DNA from: Natrinema salsiterrestre | Lineage (GTDB): Archaea; Halobacteriota; Halobacteria; Halobacteriales; Natrialbaceae | Assembly: GCF_029502005.1 (NCBI RefSeq) | Contig: NZ_JAMQOT010000001.1 | Span: 62,001-126,000, forward strand | Length of the DNA: 64,000 bases | Direction of reading: 5' to 3' | Shown here: positions 50,389 through 58,439 of the stretch, in pieces | Position numbering within the stretch: position 1 is the stretch's first letter | Layout: each line of letters opens with the position of its first letter | Program-made: the position numbers and the translations under genes | Notes under the pieces: generated by a model | Seen by the model: only the letters and a program-made list of their open reading frames with translations | What the model was told of the DNA's origin: nothing | Database searches by the model: none

Positions 50389-50850
50389 ATGAGCGACAAC
50401 CCGTGGACGGACCGGATCGTCGGGGAGCGAATGACCGTCGATCAGGAGTTCGCGACGCGAATCGAGGGATCCGAATTTTCGAACCAGCAGTGGAGTCTGA
50501 TCATGACCGCCACGGAGTTCGAGATCGAACATTCCGACGACCCCGACCGGGCGCGGATCGTCGCCAACACGGACAAGATCGACGGCATCATCCCCGAACT
50601 CGAGAACGTCGACGCCGGCATGGGAGCGATGGCCGGGCAGGGAGGGGGCGGCGGCTCGAGCTCCTCGGGCGGCGGGATTTTCGATTCGATCATGGGCGCA
50701 CTCGGCATGGGCGGGAGCAGCGGCCCCTCCGAGAAAGACCAGCGCGAGGCCGCCGAGCGGCTCACGCAGGAGTACGCGGACGAACTCCAGTCACATCTCG
50801 AGTCGAAGGGGAAGTGGGAGACGGTCCGACGCACTGCCGGCGACGAGTGA
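50389..50850 (+). CDS. DUF5799-type haloarchaeal protein
   Basis: A 153-residue protein matching the haloarchaeal DUF5799 pattern as recalled: WTDRIVGERMTVDQEFATRI, SNQQWSLIMTATEFEIEH, and IIPELENVDAGMGAM, followed by a Gly/Ser-rich linker (about 85-115) and a helical C-terminus YADELQSHLESKGKWETV. The function is unknown. The linker suggests two small domains. It stands alone between uspA and a short convergent gene. Confidence 0.75.
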   Translation: MSDNPWTDRIVGERMTVDQEFATRIEGSEFSNQQWSLIMTATEFEIEHSDDPDRARIVANTDKIDGIIPELENVDAGMGAMAGQGGGGGSSSSGGGIFDSIMGALGMGGSSGPSEKDQREAAERLTQEYADELQSHLESKGKWETVRRTAGDE

Positions 50851-51000: not shown

Positions 51001-51124
51001 ACGCGATAGTACGTCGCCGATCAGCAAAAGCACCACGGGAGGTTCGTCCCGACGTGATCCGGCGGCGAGCGTCCGCCCGGTGCAAGCCACAGCATCTTTA
51101 CGGACGGTTCCCGACCGTAGGAGT

Positions 51125-51415
51125 ATGTCCGACGAAGTCCAGACGACGACGTTCTCGATCAGCTCCGAAGACGGCGCGACCGACGACATCACGATTCCCT
51201 CCGGCCTCGTCGACCTCGTCGCCGAGGGCGACCAGACCGACGCCGAAACGGTCGGCGACGTCATGCTGCTGTCCTTCGCCAGCCGCGCACACCACATCGT
51301 CCACCACGGCGAAGACGCCGACGAGGAACTCGAGGCTCAGGAAGAGCAAGTAATGGACCTCTTCGAGGAGCGCTTCGGCGTCACGTTCGGCGAAGCGACC
51401 GGCCACCAGCACTGA
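51125..51415 (+). CDS. DUF7545-like haloarchaeal protein
   Basis: A 96-residue acidic protein: MSDEVQTTTFSISSEDGATD, ITIPSGLVDLVAEG, LLSFASRAHHIVHHGEDADEE, then VMDLFEERFGVTFGEATGHQH. The pattern with His-rich turns matches a conserved haloarchaeal family I recall as DUF7545. A TTTACG element lies about 30 bp before the ATG, giving a leaderless start. Function unknown; the His residues may bind metal, which is speculation. Confidence 0.68.
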   Translation: MSDEVQTTTFSISSEDGATDDITIPSGLVDLVAEGDQTDAETVGDVMLLSFASRAHHIVHHGEDADEELEAQEEQVMDLFEERFGVTFGEATGHQH

Positions 51416-51521: not shown

Positions 51522-54500
51522 TTATTCACCAGCGCCACCGGTCGAGACGCCCGGTGGCGATTCGCCGTTTTCGTCGGCCGCACCTGACTGATTGGGCTGT
51601 TCGGGCTGTTCGGGCTGTTCGGGCTGCTCAGGTTGTTCCGGCTGTTCAGGTTGTTCGGGCTGCTCAGATTGTTCCGGCTGGTCTGGATCCTCGAGCGGCG
51701 CTTCCGGACCGGCGTTGCCATCGCTCCCTGTCGCTTCCGCTGGTGTCGCCTCGATCGTCACCGTTACCTGATCGTCGTCAGTCGCGACCGTATGCGTCGA
51801 CGTCCCCTCCGGCAATGTCGACGAAAACGGGATCTCAGCCGATTGCCCGCCCGCGAGCGAGACGGTGGACTGGGCGACGGCCTGCTCGTCGACGCTGTAG
51901 GTCACCGTCCCCGTTCCCTCGAGATCACCCTGATTCTCGACGATCGCGGTCACCGGCACCTCCTCGCCGGCCACCCCGGATTCGGGAGCCGAGATCTCAG
52001 TAATCGCGAACTCGGCGGGCTCCCCGCTCTCTTCGATGCTGACGGTCGTCTCGGCCGTCTCCGTTTCGGTCGCCACCTCGAGCGGGTAGTCGCCGGGCTC
52101 GAGAGCGGCAGTTTCGAAAGCGAACGAAAGGCTCTGGGTCTCGCCGGCCTCGAGCGTGACCGATTCCGAACCGACGGTTTCGTCGCCGATCGCAACCGAG
52201 ACGGTCTGCGTTCCGGCCTCGCCACCGAGGTTCTGGACCTCCGTCGCGACCTCGATCTGGGCACCCCGTTCGACCGGACTGGTAACCTCGGAGATCGAAA
52301 CGCCGAACGCAGCGGGCTCGGACGCCCCGATCTCGCCGGCCGGCGGCGTCGCCGCGGTCACCGGGTCGTCGTAGCCGTAGTTCCCGAAGTCGACCTGCCA
52401 GACGAGCCGTTCGTCGTCGCTCGCGGGCGTCCACTCGACGGTGAACGCGTTCTCGCCCGGCTCGAGTTCGCTCGGGGGCTCGTCCGTCGTCGTCCCGTCG
52501 ACGAACTGACTGTTTCCGGCCATCGTCGCGCCGTTCGGGTTCTCGTACCCGAACGTCACGTCGATGCCGTCGTCGGTCGGCGTCGTTTCCGCGACCGAAA
52601 GCGACGGCAGGTCCGGTCGGGCCGCATCGTCGCACGCTTCCGCCGAGGGATTCCCGTAGTCGATACCAGCGAAGGGAACCGCTTCCGGCGAACTGATCCC
52701 GGAGATATACGTTCCGAACGTGCCGTAGTCGGGCATCTCGACGAACACCTCGTCACCCTCGGTCGTCACGTTCCGCTCGTCGCCGATTTCGAAGACGATC
52801 GTGCCGGTAAACGGTGCCTCGACGTCGTCACCGACAGTCACGAAGTCCTCGATGATGGTGTTCCCGAACCCGGCCTGATCGTAGAACCCGGTGCTCGCCG
52901 CGACCTGATCCCCTTCCTCGAGCGACGCGGTGACCACCGCGCGCGAACAGCTCGTGAATTCGACGTCGAAATCCTCGACCTCGCCGTCGACCGCGTACGC
53001 GACGCTGTCCGTTTCGAGTGACGTCCCGTCTTCGGCCGCGACGACCGCGACCTCGAGCGTCGCGTTCTCCTCGAGCGGCGGCTCGAGGTCGAACTCCATC
53101 GGCCCGATCGTTTCGTTGGCCGCGAACGTCTCGCTGACCGCGAGCTGGGTGCCCGTCTCGTCGGTGACGGTGATCGCGTACGCCACCGACGCGTTGGCCG
53201 ACGTGACGGTGATCGTTTCGCCGTCACCCGTCTGATCGGCCACCGTGAGGTTCGCCGTCGGCTCCTCCGGATCGGGTTCCACGACCGCGTACTCGATCGA
53301 GTCGTTCGCGAGCACCGCGTCGTCCGCCGCATCGCGAACGGACACGTCGACGGTCGCGTTCGCTTCGAGCGGCGGCTCGAGCTCTATGGTCTGCTCCGCG
53401 ACCGTCTCGTTGGCCTCGAACGTGTCGCTGTCGACGCGCTCGCCGTCGTACTCGGCCGTAATGGTGTACGGCACGGTGGCGCTCGCCGCGTCGATCTCGA
53501 GGGTTTCTCCCTCACCCTCCTGATCGTCGACCGAGAGGGTCGCCTCGGGTTCGTCGAGTTCGTCCGCGATGGCGTACTCGATCGTTTCGTTCGCGAGGGC
53601 AGTGCCGTCTTCACCGACCACCGAAACGTCGATCGACGCGTTCGCCTCGAGGGGCGGCTCGAGATCGAGCGTGAGATTCGTCACCCCCTCATCAGCCGCG
53701 AACGTGTCGCTCTCGACTGTCTCGCCGTCGTACTCCGCAATTACGGTGTACGGCACCGACGCGTTCGCCGCCGCGACGTCGAGCGTGTCACCGTCACCCA
53801 CCTGATCCGCGACGGACAGCGTGCCGGTTGGCTCCGCCGGTTCGTCCGTGACCGTCACGAACGCCCCATCGATGACCGGCGCGCCACCGTCGGTGACGTA
53901 CGGCACGTCCGTTTCGCCGTCGGACTCGGCGTACTGGAACGTCTCGTCGCCGTCCGTATCGAGGTGGGCGACCGCCACGAGCGCGGTGCTCGCCGCCAGC
54001 GGTTCGTCGAGTTCGATCGTGACGTTCTCGTGCTCGCCGTCCTCGAGATAGCTCGAGACGCCGCGAATGTCGTCGGGATCGGCGTCGACGGCGACCCCCT
54101 CGTAGACGGCCACGAAGCCGCCTTCGGAGAGCGACACTTCGTCGATCGTGACTTCCTCACCGGCCCCCTCTTGGTCGGAGAAGTCGATCGAGGCCGTCCC
54201 CTCGATCCGGTCGATGGTCTCGATCCGCTGGACGACTTCCACCTCGACGTGTTGCGTGATCACCGTCACATCGGCGGTGTCCGATTCGATCGCGAACGCG
54301 GTCGCATCGGCCGCAGTCTCCTGTGTCAGCGTCTGGAGTTGCGTGATGCTGATCCGCTGGGACTGGACCACCTGGGCGGTCTCCGTGCTGGCAGTTCGTG
54401 CCGCGATCTGGACCTGTGTCACCGTCGCCGCCTGTGACTGGACGAGCGCACCGCTCGCGGCCCCGGACGCGAGGCGCTGGACCTGCGTCACGTCGACGAT

Positions 54501-55886
54501 TTGCGTCTGGCTCACCGCGCCGTCACCGGCACCGAACGCGGCCGCCTGAACCTGTTCGACGGTGACCGCCTGTCGCTGGAGCGCGCTGGTAACCGCACCC
54601 TCCGCGGCACCGGTCGCTGCCGACTGAATCTGCGTGATCGACACCGCCTGTCGCTGGACGAGCGCGCCGCCCGCGGCCCCGTCGGCGGCGGCCTGGATCT
54701 GTTCGACCGTTGCCTCCTGACTCTGCGATATCGCACCTTTCGCCGCACCGAAGGAGGCTTCCTGTACCTGCGTGATCGAGATTCGCTGGATCTGCACGAT
54801 GGTGACGGATTGCACCTGCTTCACCGAGCCCCGACTCGCACCGCGAGCCGCGGCCTGCGTCTGCTCGACCGAGACCTCCTGTTCCTGCACGAGCGCACCC
54901 TTCGCCGCCCCGGCCGCGGCTTTCTGAATCTGTTTGATCGTGGCTCGCTGGCGCTGCTCGGTTTCGACGCGCTGTTCCTGTCGGACGTCCACCCGTTGCT
55001 CCTGTTCGAGCGCGGCCCGCGTGCTCCCCTCGAGCGCGCCGGCGGCCGCACCGATCGCCGCATGCTGGACGTGCTCGAGGGTCACCCGCTGGCGCTGTTC
55101 GACCGATATCGACTGGTATTGCGTCAGGGCACCGTAGGCCGATCCCTGCGCGGCTTCCTGAATCTTCGAGACTTTCCCGACGTCTTTCGTGCCCGCTTCG
55201 CTCGCGGCACCCGCGGCCGCACCCGCGCTCGCGACCTGTATCTGTTCGGCACTCACGCGCTGGCTCTGAGCGACCGCACCGTGTGCCCCGCCCCAAGTCG
55301 CGCTCTGTAACTGGGTGGCGTTTACCGACTGGGACTGCGAGAGTCCGCCGGCCGTCGCGCCGCCGACTGCGGCTTGGATCTGCGTCACGTTCACCGACTG
55401 TTCCTGGATCAGCGTCCCGTGAACGGCCCCTTTGGTCGCTGCCTGCACCTGCTCGGCCTCGACGGTCTGGGACTGCGACACCGACTCTCGAGCGCCCTCG
55501 AGCGCTGCCGTCCGCTGTTCCTGAGTCACCTCGATCCCCTGGGACTGAACGAGCGCGATCCCCTGGTCGACGCCGGCCTCGACGGCCGCCGTCTGTTCCT
55601 GGCTGACCGTCGTCTGCGTGGTAATACCGACGTCCGCTGCGGGCGGCCCCGCATCCACCAGGTCGAATTGCGACGCGGCTGTCGGTTCTGCGTCCACCCG
55701 AGAATCGTCTCCGTGAAGTGTAGCCTGTTCCCCGCCCCCGAGTTGCGATTCGATCGATCCGTCGACGTCCCCGTTCTCGGGCTCCGTGACCGCCCCGGGA
55801 TTGCCGCCGAGTACCGGGAGCGCGACGACGCTTCCGACCATCGCGGCCGCGACCAGCACGACGATCGTAGTGCGACTCGGACTCAT
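51522..55886 (-). CDS. Secreted giant repeat protein with Q-x-Q/GAAxGA array, DUF7282 and CARDB domains
   Basis: A 1454-residue exported protein. Signal peptide at 1-24 (TTIVVLVAAAMVGSVVALPV). Residues 92-530: about sixteen 23-residue units of consensus xVxVEQVQAAAxGAAxGAxxQxQ. Residues about 566-690: DUF7282-like domain, then three more related units of about 90 residues (DQxGDGETL, VPYTITAEYDGE, LEPPLEANA). Then a Cys-containing beta domain, two CARDB-like Ig domains (VSPVERGAQIEV-type), and a tail of (PEQ)n ending SPPGVSTGGAGE. No PGF-CTERM or C-terminal anchor is visible, so it is secreted or bound by other means. Likely an adhesin or surface structure; function unknown. Codon usage matches the genome. 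Confidence 0.8.
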   Translation of the reverse strand: MSPSRTTIVVLVAAAMVGSVVALPVLGGNPGAVTEPENGDVDGSIESQLGGGEQATLHGDDSRVDAEPTAASQFDLVDAGPPAADVGITTQTTVSQEQTAAVEAGVDQGIALVQSQGIEVTQEQRTAALEGARESVSQSQTVEAEQVQAATKGAVHGTLIQEQSVNVTQIQAAVGGATAGGLSQSQSVNATQLQSATWGGAHGAVAQSQRVSAEQIQVASAGAAAGAASEAGTKDVGKVSKIQEAAQGSAYGALTQYQSISVEQRQRVTLEHVQHAAIGAAAGALEGSTRAALEQEQRVDVRQEQRVETEQRQRATIKQIQKAAAGAAKGALVQEQEVSVEQTQAAARGASRGSVKQVQSVTIVQIQRISITQVQEASFGAAKGAISQSQEATVEQIQAAADGAAGGALVQRQAVSITQIQSAATGAAEGAVTSALQRQAVTVEQVQAAAFGAGDGAVSQTQIVDVTQVQRLASGAASGALVQSQAATVTQVQIAARTASTETAQVVQSQRISITQLQTLTQETAADATAFAIESDTADVTVITQHVEVEVVQRIETIDRIEGTASIDFSDQEGAGEEVTIDEVSLSEGGFVAVYEGVAVDADPDDIRGVSSYLEDGEHENVTIELDEPLAASTALVAVAHLDTDGDETFQYAESDGETDVPYVTDGGAPVIDGAFVTVTDEPAEPTGTLSVADQVGDGDTLDVAAANASVPYTVIAEYDGETVESDTFAADEGVTNLTLDLEPPLEANASIDVSVVGEDGTALANETIEYAIADELDEPEATLSVDDQEGEGETLEIDAASATVPYTITAEYDGERVDSDTFEANETVAEQTIELEPPLEANATVDVSVRDAADDAVLANDSIEYAVVEPDPEEPTANLTVADQTGDGETITVTSANASVAYAITVTDETGTQLAVSETFAANETIGPMEFDLEPPLEENATLEVAVVAAEDGTSLETDSVAYAVDGEVEDFDVEFTSCSRAVVTASLEEGDQVAASTGFYDQAGFGNTIIEDFVTVGDDVEAPFTGTIVFEIGDERNVTTEGDEVFVEMPDYGTFGTYISGISSPEAVPFAGIDYGNPSAEACDDAARPDLPSLSVAETTPTDDGIDVTFGYENPNGATMAGNSQFVDGTTTDEPPSELEPGENAFTVEWTPASDDERLVWQVDFGNYGYDDPVTAATPPAGEIGASEPAAFGVSISEVTSPVERGAQIEVATEVQNLGGEAGTQTVSVAIGDETVGSESVTLEAGETQSLSFAFETAALEPGDYPLEVATETETAETTVSIEESGEPAEFAITEISAPESGVAGEEVPVTAIVENQGDLEGTGTVTYSVDEQAVAQSTVSLAGGQSAEIPFSSTLPEGTSTHTVATDDDQVTVTIEATPAEATGSDGNAGPEAPLEDPDQPEQSEQPEQPEQPEQPEQPEQPEQPEQPNQSGAADENGESPPGVSTGGAGE
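51594..51686 (-). repeat. 9-bp tandem repeats coding for Pro-Glu-Gln
   Basis: About ten degenerate 9-bp units (plus strand GGCTGTTCG and variants such as GGTTGTTCC, GGCTGCTCA) encode PEQ, with SEQ, DQ and NQ variants at the edges. The repeat can expand by slippage in frame, as 9 bp keeps the frame. It forms a hydrophilic stalk near the C-terminus of the secreted protein. Confidence 0.9.
54297..55613 (-). repeat. Array of about sixteen 23-residue Q-x-Q/GAAxGA units
   Basis: Each unit of 69 bp codes for a V-x-V-x-Q-x-Q strand-like part, an AAxGAAxGA glycine-zipper part and an LVQxQ link. Several units carry 8- or 16-residue additions of the strand part (for example RISITQVQ after SVTIVQIQ). 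DNA copies are diverged, so the array is old rather than a recent expansion. Confidence 0.85.
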
Positions 55887-56380
55887 CGGACGATTCCTCC
55901 CGCCTCTGTGCCCGTCGAGTTCGTTGCTCCGGTTGTCATACCAGACCGTTTCCGAGCACCTCGTCCGTCACGCACCCACTCTCCGGATACCCACCTCCGG
56001 TCTCCTCTTCGGAGCCCTGATTTTGCCTCGTTGTACCTCGAACCGCCACCCTTCACACTACGGAATCGCATTTTCCCACACGGGGCGGAATCGGTCTATA
56101 AGACCGCCGGTCGTTTCAGTTACCGATCCGAGACAATACGCTCTTACTCCGCCCGTTCGACGAAGTGCGACCGTAGACGACCGGAAGAAGCCCGGAAAGT
56201 ACGATCCCGAACCAGCAGACCGGAGTCGAGACTGTCCTCGACGCTGGAAGGAATCACACTGTTTCGTCCCGGACTCGAGTGTGTCGACGCGAGCGACCCC
56301 ACTTCGGAGAAAACGTCAATAATACTGGCGTAAATCTCGGAAACCGAAGTCTTCATCCGGGTTTACGAACGAGAGGGGCT
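55887..56380. other. Divergent promoter region between the secreted repeat protein and bioY
   Basis: About 490 bp without a supported gene. It must hold both promoters. A CGTCAATAATACTGG segment near 56314-56326 may be the TATA element of bioY, with an inverted pair CGTAAA/TTTACG downstream. The left half is moderately GC-rich with no repeats noted. Confidence 0.5.
56329..56367. promoter_or_regulatory. CGTAAA-N27-TTTACG inverted pair before bioY
   Basis: The arms (56329-56334, 56362-56367) flank the expected transcription start of bioY, 15-50 bp before its ATG. BirA sites in other prokaryotes use GTTTAC/GTAAAC arms, but with shorter spacers (about 14-16 bp), so the match is only suggestive. 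Confidence 0.25.
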
Positions 56381-56968
56381 ATGGCAACAGAGCAAAATTC
56401 CGTCGATCTCGTCGACGACACCGTCGTTCGGCAGTTCGCTCGAGCCGCACTACTCGCGGCGCTAATCGGTGCGACGGCAGCGGTGTCAATTCCGATACCG
56501 TTTTCGCCGGAACCGATCACGTTACAGGTACTGTTCGTCTTCCTCGCGGGACTCGTCCTCGGTCCGGTCTGGGGATTCGTCTCGCTCGTGCTCTACCTCG
56601 CCGCGGGGGCCGTCGGCGCCCCGGTGTTCGCCGGCCTGAACGGTGGTGTCGGAGTGCTCGTCGGGAACTCGGGCGGCTATCTCTGGTCGTATCCGATCGC
56701 CGCGGCACTGATCGGCTTCATCGTCCACCGCGGCACGGAACTCCGGGATCTCACCGCGGTTTGGCTCCCGGTCATCGTCGGTGCACTCCTCGCGGGGACG
56801 ATCGTCATCTACGGCATGGGGACGGCGTACATGGCCTGGCTGCTCGAGCTAGGTGCCTGGGAAGCCCTCAGTCTCGGCGCGTTCCCGTTCATCCCCGTCG
56901 AAATCCTCAAGATGATCGCCGCGATCGCCATCGTCAGATCCGGCGGGCTTCGGCCGGTTCGATCATAA
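56381..56968 (+). CDS. bioY: Biotin transporter substrate-binding subunit BioY
   Basis: A 195-residue ECF-transporter S-component with about six transmembrane helices. Signatures are ALLAALIGATAAVSIPIPFS, PITLQVLFVFLAGLVLGPVWG, GAPVFAGLNGGVGVLVGNSGGYLWSYPIAA (biotin-binding region) and FIPVEILKMIAAIAI. It captures biotin with high affinity and works with the adjacent energy module at 56981 and 57735. The 13-bp gap to the next gene indicates an operon. BirA in the same window suggests biotin is used and probably regulated. Confidence 0.95.
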   Translation: MATEQNSVDLVDDTVVRQFARAALLAALIGATAAVSIPIPFSPEPITLQVLFVFLAGLVLGPVWGFVSLVLYLAAGAVGAPVFAGLNGGVGVLVGNSGGYLWSYPIAAALIGFIVHRGTELRDLTAVWLPVIVGALLAGTIVIYGMGTAYMAWLLELGAWEALSLGAFPFIPVEILKMIAAIAIVRSGGLRPVRS

Positions 56969-56980
56969 CGCCACGAGACG

Positions 56981-57685
56981 ATGATCGAGTTCCAGTCGGT
57001 CTCCCACGCCTTCGACGACGTCGCCGTGCTCGAGGACGTTTCGCTGTCGCTCGGCGACGGCGAGTTCGTCCTGCTCGCGGGAGCCAACGGCAGCGGGAAG
57101 ACGACGCTGTTGCGCCACTGCAACGGATTGCTGACCCCCGATTCGGGCGACGTGCTCGTCGACGGTACACCCGTCGTGGACGATCTGATCGCCGCTCGCT
57201 CGAGCGTCGGAATGGTGTTCCAGCACCCGCGCGACCAGTTCGTCGCCGCAACTGTCGGCGCCGACGTCGCCTTCGGTCCCGAAAACCTCGGGCTGGCGCG
57301 CGAGGAGATCGACCGCCGAGTCGACGCGGCGCTCGAGGCGGTGAACATGGCCGGCCGGGACGACGACCGAATCGACACCCTCTCTGGGGGCGAGCAGTCC
57401 CGCGTCGCGATCGCGGGCGCGCTCGCGATGGAACCCACCCATCTCGTCCTCGACGAACCCTTCACCGGACTCGACGAGCCCGCTCGCCGCTCGGTCCTCG
57501 AGCGGCTCGAGTCCCTGTCGGCCGACGGAACCGGGATCCTCCTCGCGACCCACGACTTGCGTGACGTGACTGGTCTCGCCGATCGCGTGATCGCTATGCG
57601 AGACGGGCGCGTCGCCGTCGACGGACCGCCCGAGCACGCACTGACCGAACTCGACGGGCTCGAGATACGCGTTCCGGAGCAGTGA
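56981..57685 (+). CDS. bioM: ECF transporter ATPase (BioM/CbiO type)
   Basis: A 234-residue ABC ATPase. Walker A GANGSGKTT at 33-41, Q-loop MVFQHPRDQFVAATV near 79, signature LSGGEQSRVAIAGALA near 135, Walker B HLVLDEPFTGLD, and H-loop ATHDLRDV. The Q-loop DQF sequence is typical of ECF ATPases rather than of ABC importers with periplasmic proteins. It forms the energy module with BioN. Only one ATPase gene is present in the cluster, so it probably acts as a homodimer. Confidence 0.93.
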   Translation: MIEFQSVSHAFDDVAVLEDVSLSLGDGEFVLLAGANGSGKTTLLRHCNGLLTPDSGDVLVDGTPVVDDLIAARSSVGMVFQHPRDQFVAATVGADVAFGPENLGLAREEIDRRVDAALEAVNMAGRDDDRIDTLSGGEQSRVAIAGALAMEPTHLVLDEPFTGLDEPARRSVLERLESLSADGTGILLATHDLRDVTGLADRVIAMRDGRVAVDGPPEHALTELDGLEIRVPEQ

Positions 57686-57734
57686 TCGAGATGGTCGAAC
57701 CGTTACCGCCGATACGCGACGGGGGAATGCCCCA

Positions 57735-58439
57735 GTGCTGACGTTCGAACCAGACGAGACGCTCGCACACCGTCTCGACCCGCGGAGCAAGCTGGCGGTC
57801 CAGATCGGGTTCGCCGCGACCGCCCTCGCACACCCGACGCCGCGGGCGCTGATCGTTCTCTCCGTGCTGACGGGACTCCTGCTGGCGGCGGCGAGCGTGT
57901 CGCTCCGCCGCACGCTCGTCGCCTACCGCTTCGCGCTGATCGTCCTCGTCCTCGCACCGATACTGTCGGGACTCTCCCTCGGCACCCCGTGGTTCGATCG
58001 ACCCGCCGCCGTCACGTCGGGGCTGGCGAGCTACCGCGTCCTCCTCATTCTGCTCGTCAGCGCGGCCTACGTCAGATCGACTCCGGTGCGCGCGTCTCGA
58101 GCGGCGATCCAGCGGACGATTCCCGGAAAGCCGGGACAGGTACTCGGCACGGGTATCGCGCTCGTCTTCCGCTTCCTTCCCGTGCTGCAGAGCGATCTCC
58201 GGACGATCCGCGAGGCGATGGCCGCCCGTCTGGGAACCGAACGCGGCGCGATCGACCGCGCCAGCACGATCGGGACGCTCGGCATCACGCGCGCGTTCAA
58301 CCGCGCCGATCGGCTCTCGCTCGCACTGCAGGCGCGGTGCTTCGCGTGGAATCCCACGCTTCCACCGCTCGAGTTCTCTCGTGTGGATTACCCCGCGCTC
58401 GTCCTCGCCATCGGACTCGCGCTCTCCGCCTTCTACTAG
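57735..58439 (+). CDS. bioN: ECF transporter transmembrane subunit (BioN/CbiQ type)
   Basis: A 234-residue membrane protein of the EcfT family. Start LTFEPDETLAHRLDPRSKLAVQIG is family-typical, with about five helices. Coupling motifs: REAMAARLGTERG near residue 160 and LALQARCFAWNP near 200. The second motif has ARC in place of the usual ARG. It starts at GTG (57735) because in-frame ATG choices upstream are lacking. It completes the BioY-BioM-BioN biotin transporter operon. Confidence 0.92.
   Translation: MLTFEPDETLAHRLDPRSKLAVQIGFAATALAHPTPRALIVLSVLTGLLLAAASVSLRRTLVAYRFALIVLVLAPILSGLSLGTPWFDRPAAVTSGLASYRVLLILLVSAAYVRSTPVRASRAAIQRTIPGKPGQVLGTGIALVFRFLPVLQSDLRTIREAMAARLGTERGAIDRASTIGTLGITRAFNRADRLSLALQARCFAWNPTLPPLEFSRVDYPALVLAIGLALSAFY

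Follow-up and report, generated by a model that had tools for sequence, protein, structure and literature searches.

What fold and what function should be expected of a long array of glutamine-, alanine- and glycine-rich repeats in a secreted archaeal protein? The question is raised by a gene of Natrinema salsiterrestre lying in the 64,000-nucleotide stretch of DNA analysed here (the window). A preliminary description of this gene had considered a solenoid, an amyloid-like fibre and a membrane-active module of a surface adhesin as candidates. The features of the gene, in window coordinates, are:

51522..55886 (-), the repeat-protein gene, an open reading frame of 1454 aa with an orthologue in 103 of 125 same-family genomes
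55803..55886 (-), putative Sec-type signal peptide without twin arginine, residues 1 to ~28, read by eye from MSPSRTTIVVLVAAAMVGSVVALPVLGG
54297..55613 (-), the 23-residue repeat array, residues 92-530, ~16 single-helix units
55101..55625 (-), units 1-7, residues 88-262, modelled by AlphaFold2 as a seven-helix α-solenoid
54933..55004 (-), octad stretch (QEQRVDVRQEQRVETEQRQRATIK), residues 295-318, from the orthologue alignment and unit spacings
54771..54794 (-), lone 8-residue module QIQRISIT, residues 365-372, from sequence periodicity and unit spacings
53853..54194 (-), DUF7282 domain, residues 565-678 (Pfam PF23951, E 6.5e-36)
51771..52010 (-), CARDB (Ig-like) domain, residues 1293-1372 (Pfam PF07705, E 5.9e-10, two stretches)
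51591..51689 (-), low-complexity (EQP)n tail, variable among orthologues

The secreted repeat protein and its 23-residue unit

The N-terminus of the 1454-residue protein (residues 1 to ~28) resembles a signal peptide of the Sec type. Both DUF7282 and CARDB lie C-terminal to the array and are followed by the low-complexity tail. The array bears a net charge of -9 in 439 aa versus -204 in the remaining 924 aa; its detected core contains 28 acidic and 25 basic residues in 375 aa, the remainder of the protein being strongly acidic. Pro, Cys and Met are absent from the array. Such a near-neutral segment is unusual in an extracellular haloarchaeal protein.

Residues 92-530 correspond exactly to positions 54297-55613 of the open reading frame 51522-55886 (-). 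About 16 helix-bearing units can be recognized by eye, 14 of which were recovered by a weight-matrix scan. The array contains 34 QxQ motifs spaced mostly by 8 and 15 residues (8+15=23), and its self-identity at lag 23 is 0.267 versus 0.113 +/- 0.015 for shuffled sequences (z 10.4, 500 shuffles), with elevated values also at lags 46, 31 and 8 (z 6.2, 5.8 and 4.3). The periodicity and the QxQ motifs thus bear out the ~16-unit, 23-residue array of the preliminary description.

The unit of the window protein follows the pattern QxQxVxVxQxQxAAxGAAxGALx. The 815 units with regular spacing in 99 homologous ORFs give the consensus Q1 x Q3 x [VA]5 [STN]6 V7 [TE]8 Q9 [IV]10 Q11 x A13 A14 x G16 A17 A18 x G20 A21 L22 x23, in which the four Gln are conserved at 92-96% and the two Gly at 98-99%. 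Position 6 is occupied by S/T/N/D in 89% of the units, position 5 by V/A and position 10 by I/V/L; this combination is a textbook N-cap with a hydrophobic staple. Of the 815 units, 110 have an N-glycosylation sequon starting at position 6 of the connector, which suggests that this position is a solvent-exposed tip. Two homologues (L063 and L064) carry 10-11 sequons per array compared with 2 in the window protein. The outward positions 12, 15 and 19 are generally variable (0.5-1.4 bits over all units). Units two apart are slightly more alike than those at k=1 or k=3, chiefly at positions 12/15/19, as expected of two alternating layers.

The spacing between units is 23 (815 cases), 26 (200), 31 (114), 39 (32), 47 (7) or 55 residues (7) in the 99 homologous ORFs, i.e. 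23+8n plus a distinct +3 class (26), so the 8-residue additions noticed earlier are real. The 8-residue steps duplicate xVSVTQIQ in the linkers, and the number of octads at residues 295-318 differs from orthologue to orthologue in the alignment. Since eight residues is no helical repeat, the octads may form brief excursions of extended chain between helices; for the octad-bearing (31/39-spaced) pairs covariation is too shallow to place these inserts (Meff 24). Paralogues with Tat signals show further variants. Those from two Natrialbaceae genomes (L080 and L081) are short (~340 aa, ~four units, Lys-rich linker) and end in a tail of octads only (QSQSVDVS...), an 8-residue module without the helix part; others (L078, L111-L113) have 26-residue units with an extra SGV-like turn.

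Fold of the array

Independently of AlphaFold2, a mean-field calculation on 815-1310 unit pairs gave the couplings of unit n with unit n+k. For neighbouring units (k=1) the antiparallel band holds 0.89 of the positive coupling power versus 0.39 expected (p<2e-4, 0 of 5000 column permutations), and the couplings 21-14, 13-20, 18-13, 20-16, 14-19 and 17-17 follow the line i+j ~34. For an antiparallel hairpin with its centre at connector position 6, i+j=35 would be expected, near the observed line. The k=1 result recurs in the C half (p 0.002) and the N half (p 0.009), as well as in Natrialbaceae alone and in other families alone. For k=2 the parallel band holds 0.76 of the coupling power versus 0.44 expected (p 0.003), with the couplings 21-18, 16-20, 19-19 and 17-17 on the parallel line. 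At k=3-6 neither band is significant at standard weighting, k=3 being borderline antiparallel at coarser weighting (p 0.048). Within the unit, couplings of positions 11-23 peak at i+4. Such a pattern is characteristic of a stack of antiparallel helices, with n/n+1 antiparallel and n/n+2 parallel. At positions 4-11 i+2 couplings are found; together with Q1/Q3/Q9/Q11 these look more extended than helical, and the connector may therefore be partly strand. The couplings of the four Gln columns are treated with caution because these columns are invariant to >90% and vary jointly in irregular units.

The first AlphaFold2 run covered residues 80-690 (array and DUF7282) with 21 orthologues and gave an overall pLDDT of 46, mostly <50. 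Units 1-4 were nevertheless modelled with moderate confidence as one helix of 17-20 residues per unit (pLDDT blocks of ~57-87 over residues 90-180), in the same helix phase as in the second run; the second half of the array and the octad region stayed at pLDDT ~20-25. The second run, on residues 88-262 with an 84-row alignment that included register-shifted rows of the same arrays, predicted seven helices, one per unit, with pLDDT 88.7 and pTM 0.87; this pLDDT was reached by two of the five models, the others giving 63, 47 and 44. The predicted fold of units 1-7 is thus a seven-helix α-solenoid. AlphaFold2 and covariation, as two independent lines, indicate that the array is an α-solenoid with one helix per unit, and the two-layer geometry presumably extends over the whole array. 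Of the earlier suggestions the solenoid is thereby sustained, with the modelling of six to eight units proposed there now done for seven. The division of the unit into a strand-like and a glycine-zipper part needs revision: the glycine zipper together with the second QxQ makes up a single helix, and what was described as strand-like corresponds mostly to the connector between helices.

No credible match of the array was found in Pfam, NCBIfam, PHROGs or PDB sequences, and Foldseek of the model against PDB and BFVD viral models gave no match at E<=0.001; this agrees with the earlier impression that the pattern belongs to no named domain, and the lack of matches does not establish a new fold. 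DUF7282 (PF23951) and CARDB (PF07705) are separate domains of the same protein and do not cover the array. Weak matches to PAS_7, DUF7712 and terminase are at chance level and were rejected. A literature search, with subscription papers and preprints outside its scope, found no paper on DUF7282 or a similar repeat.

The top structures in VIA-align were the designed helical repeats DHR5 and DHR10 (PDB 5cwc and 5cwg, Z 6.6 and 6.4), in which antiparallel helices are likewise stacked, aligned over ~150 residues. They differ from the array in being designed proteins with a two-helix rather than a one-helix unit, and the correspondence is loose (rmsd 6.3-6.5, 10-13% identity, Foldseek E 0.17-0.34; at best Z 6.6 with rmsd 6.5 over 151 residues and Foldseek E >0.1). 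The likeness is one of common arrangement and not of kinship, Z values under ~13 being common among helical repeats. In TPR, HEAT and Armadillo proteins repeated helices are stacked as a superhelix with a binding face. Their unit consists of two distinct helices in 34-47 aa, whereas in the array a single 23-aa helix type occurs in either orientation, packed through Ala/Gly and joined by QxQ connectors. Its period is 23, lag 23 exceeds lag 46, and odd/even alternation is weak. None of the TPR, HEAT or Armadillo Pfam models was matched at E<=10 in the window protein or at E<=0.01 in distant homologues. As in α-solenoids, neighbouring helices are antiparallel and n/n+2 parallel both in the covariation and in the AlphaFold2 model of units 1-7. 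The array probably represents an undescribed α-solenoid repeat family, found here only in Halobacteriales and possessing a putative binding site.

Distribution and maintenance of the units

A translated search located the array in 103 of 125 same-family genomes and 26 of 29 genera (Natrinema, Haloterrigena, Natronorubrum, Natrialba, Halostagnicola, Natronococcus and others). The Natrialbaceae genomes nearly always have one copy, which matches nearly the whole 439-residue query and therefore has a fixed length. Order-wide, 120 of 392 genomes match; all 20 matching genomes of a phylum-wide sample of 393 are Halobacteriales, and so are all of the 111 among 391 genomes matched by a class-wide profile search. 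Two of the records with the array are plasmids (Halobaculum and Halomicrococcus). No match was found in the phage records and viral contigs searched.

Variation of the unit number among homologues, which the preliminary description had put up for examination, is found between families (6-23 detected units) and not within Natrialbaceae. Across Halobacteriales the fusion partners of the array are TSP3, Ig-like, CAP, DUF7282 or CARDB domains, and in other families also Thr/Pro-rich stalks or C-terminal hydrophobic anchors. The assignment to a secreted haloarchaeal surface protein is supported. One homologue is a 2292-residue frame (L077, G014:C1:224000-232000) that combines the array with TSP3, many Ig-like repeats, CAP and a C-terminal anchor-like segment. 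CAP is a cysteine-rich secretory domain.

Orthologous units of Natrialbaceae are 71% identical between genera versus 46% among the units of one protein; between families, same-index units (3-7) are 57% identical versus 44% for different indices. The units are therefore ancient and individually maintained, and the array is neither homogenised nor contracting. In 20 of 20 pairwise comparisons the array shows higher conservation than the remainder of the protein.

The divergent genes at 56279-58439 (+), identified by eye, resemble a biotin ECF transporter module of the BioY type. They adjoin the repeat gene in nearly all examined Natrialbaceae loci and are absent there in Halorientalis (L050); the neighbourhood being broken in this way, it gives no operon clue. 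Two small conserved ORFs at 50389-50850 and 51080-51415 (+) are convergent with the repeat gene and keep this position in nearly all Natrialbaceae loci examined. The gene neighbourhoods of the loci examined contain no operon partner informative on function.

The conserved patch and its possible role

The outward positions 12/15/19 are near-invariant in units 3, 5 and 7 only:

55419..55421 (-), His156, unit 3 position 19; H in 53/55 Natrialbaceae and 35/40 other homologues
55293..55295 (-), Trp198, unit 5 position 15; W/Y/F in the homologue alignment
55281..55283 (-), His202, unit 5 position 19; 53/55 Natrialbaceae, 40/40 others
55155..55157 (-), Glu244, unit 7 position 12; 55/55 Natrialbaceae, 39/40 others (D once)
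55146..55148 (-), Gln247, unit 7 position 15; 53/55 Natrialbaceae, 40/40 others
55134..55136 (-), Tyr251, unit 7 position 19; Y in 53/55 Natrialbaceae, Y or F in 40/40 others

Read as a string, the six residues are HWHEQY in 50 of 55 Natrialbaceae and H[YF]HEQ[YF] in 31 of 40 other-family homologues. The patch is absent from L078, the sole Tat-type paralogue that could be aligned, which has ELGYSQ instead. Judged from the helix phase, the patch should lie at the solenoid surface. Because helices n and n+2 are parallel neighbours coupled at position 19, its residues are expected to line up in a single row on one layer. This conservation makes the patch a putative site for a specific ligand or partner rather than a feature of a passive stalk; with its His/Glu/Gln and aromatic side chains it could accommodate a glycan, a metal or a partner protein.

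On balance we favour the reading, which seems rather probable, that the array is an extracellular α-solenoid presenting a patch that binds a specific ligand or partner. Each unit would form one helix of ~16-19 residues (positions 7/9 to ~23), beginning at N-cap position 6 (S/T/N/D) with hydrophobics at 5 and 10 and packed via Ala/Gly at 13/14/16/17/18/20/21, and a short QxQxV connector would lead to the next, antiparallel helix. With helix n packed on n+1 antiparallel and on n+2 parallel, a two-layer, nearly charge-neutral rod would result, which the secreted or surface protein would carry at its N-terminal end. H156, W198/H202 and E244/Q247/Y251 at the outward 12/15/19 positions would make one conserved patch binding a glycan, an envelope protein or a metal; the remaining solenoid would present it, and the Ig-like/DUF7282 domains would serve as an anchor.

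Two other readings differ in the function of the solenoid. It could be a passive rigid spacer that distances the Ig-like/DUF7282 domains, or an envelope rod, with the patch as a folding or capping feature. That the array occurs in long secreted proteins of several domains with stalk-like tails, and that the number of units depends on the family, would fit such a spacer; the array is, however, placed at the distal N-terminal end and not between two modules, no other part of the protein is as conserved, its length is fixed in Natrialbaceae, and the invariant polar and aromatic outward residues occur in units 3/5/7 only. We therefore regard a spacer as not very likely. A self-assembling fibre or envelope lattice, with solenoids stacked end-to-end or side-by-side via the Q-rich connectors, would make use of the near-neutral charge of the array and of the connector Gln conserved at ~95%, but the concentration of sequons at connector position 6 suggests exposed tips, and large domains cap the array; such an assembly appears unlikely.

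The remaining readings concern the fold itself. A β-solenoid or curli-like amyloid of VxVxQxQ strands would account for the alternating pattern, for the strongly β-prone connectors in some units (e.g. VQIQVVNVVQIQ) and for the octad extensions. Curlin (CsgA) is a secreted protein with 22-23-residue Q-containing repeats. Its units are strand-turn-strand, whereas the couplings in the array are of helix type: a parallel in-register β-ladder would give neither the i+4 couplings nor the antiparallel n/n+1 couplings with position 17 as their centre. Curlin or β-solenoid Pfam models were unmatched at E<=10, and in the modelled part the i,i+4 contacts, the parallel n/n+2 relation and the AlphaFold2 helices contradict the amyloid-like fibre or strand-based unit suggested earlier, so that this explanation is very improbable. 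A membrane-active or membrane-inserted glycine-zipper module, also among the first suggestions, is hardly credible: the Ala/Gly helices do have GxxxG spacing, but they contain Q, S, T, K, R and E, and the maximum 19-residue Kyte-Doolittle mean is 0.8 in the array of the window protein and 1.7 in any homologue examined.

Within the favoured reading of a ligand-presenting α-solenoid, an adhesin role is conceivable, though the fixed unit number within Natrialbaceae is unlike a phase-variable adhesin. More tentatively, these proteins might constitute a haloarchaea-specific class of extracellular solenoid receptors, with 23-residue one-helix units, an H-[WYF]-H-E-Q-[YF] ligand site on alternate helices kept across families, and varied surface anchors.

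Most large haloarchaeal surface proteins are unannotated, and the array is a widespread, deeply conserved, unclassified module with a predicted fold. Being near-universal in Natrialbaceae and having a predicted fold and six named residues, it offers a surface role that is directly testable in genetically tractable haloarchaea. CRISPR-based editing has been published for Natrinema gari J7-2 (PMC10433800). A natural solenoid made of a single Ala/Gly-packed helix type, near-neutral and yet working in saturated salt, would also be of interest to protein designers.
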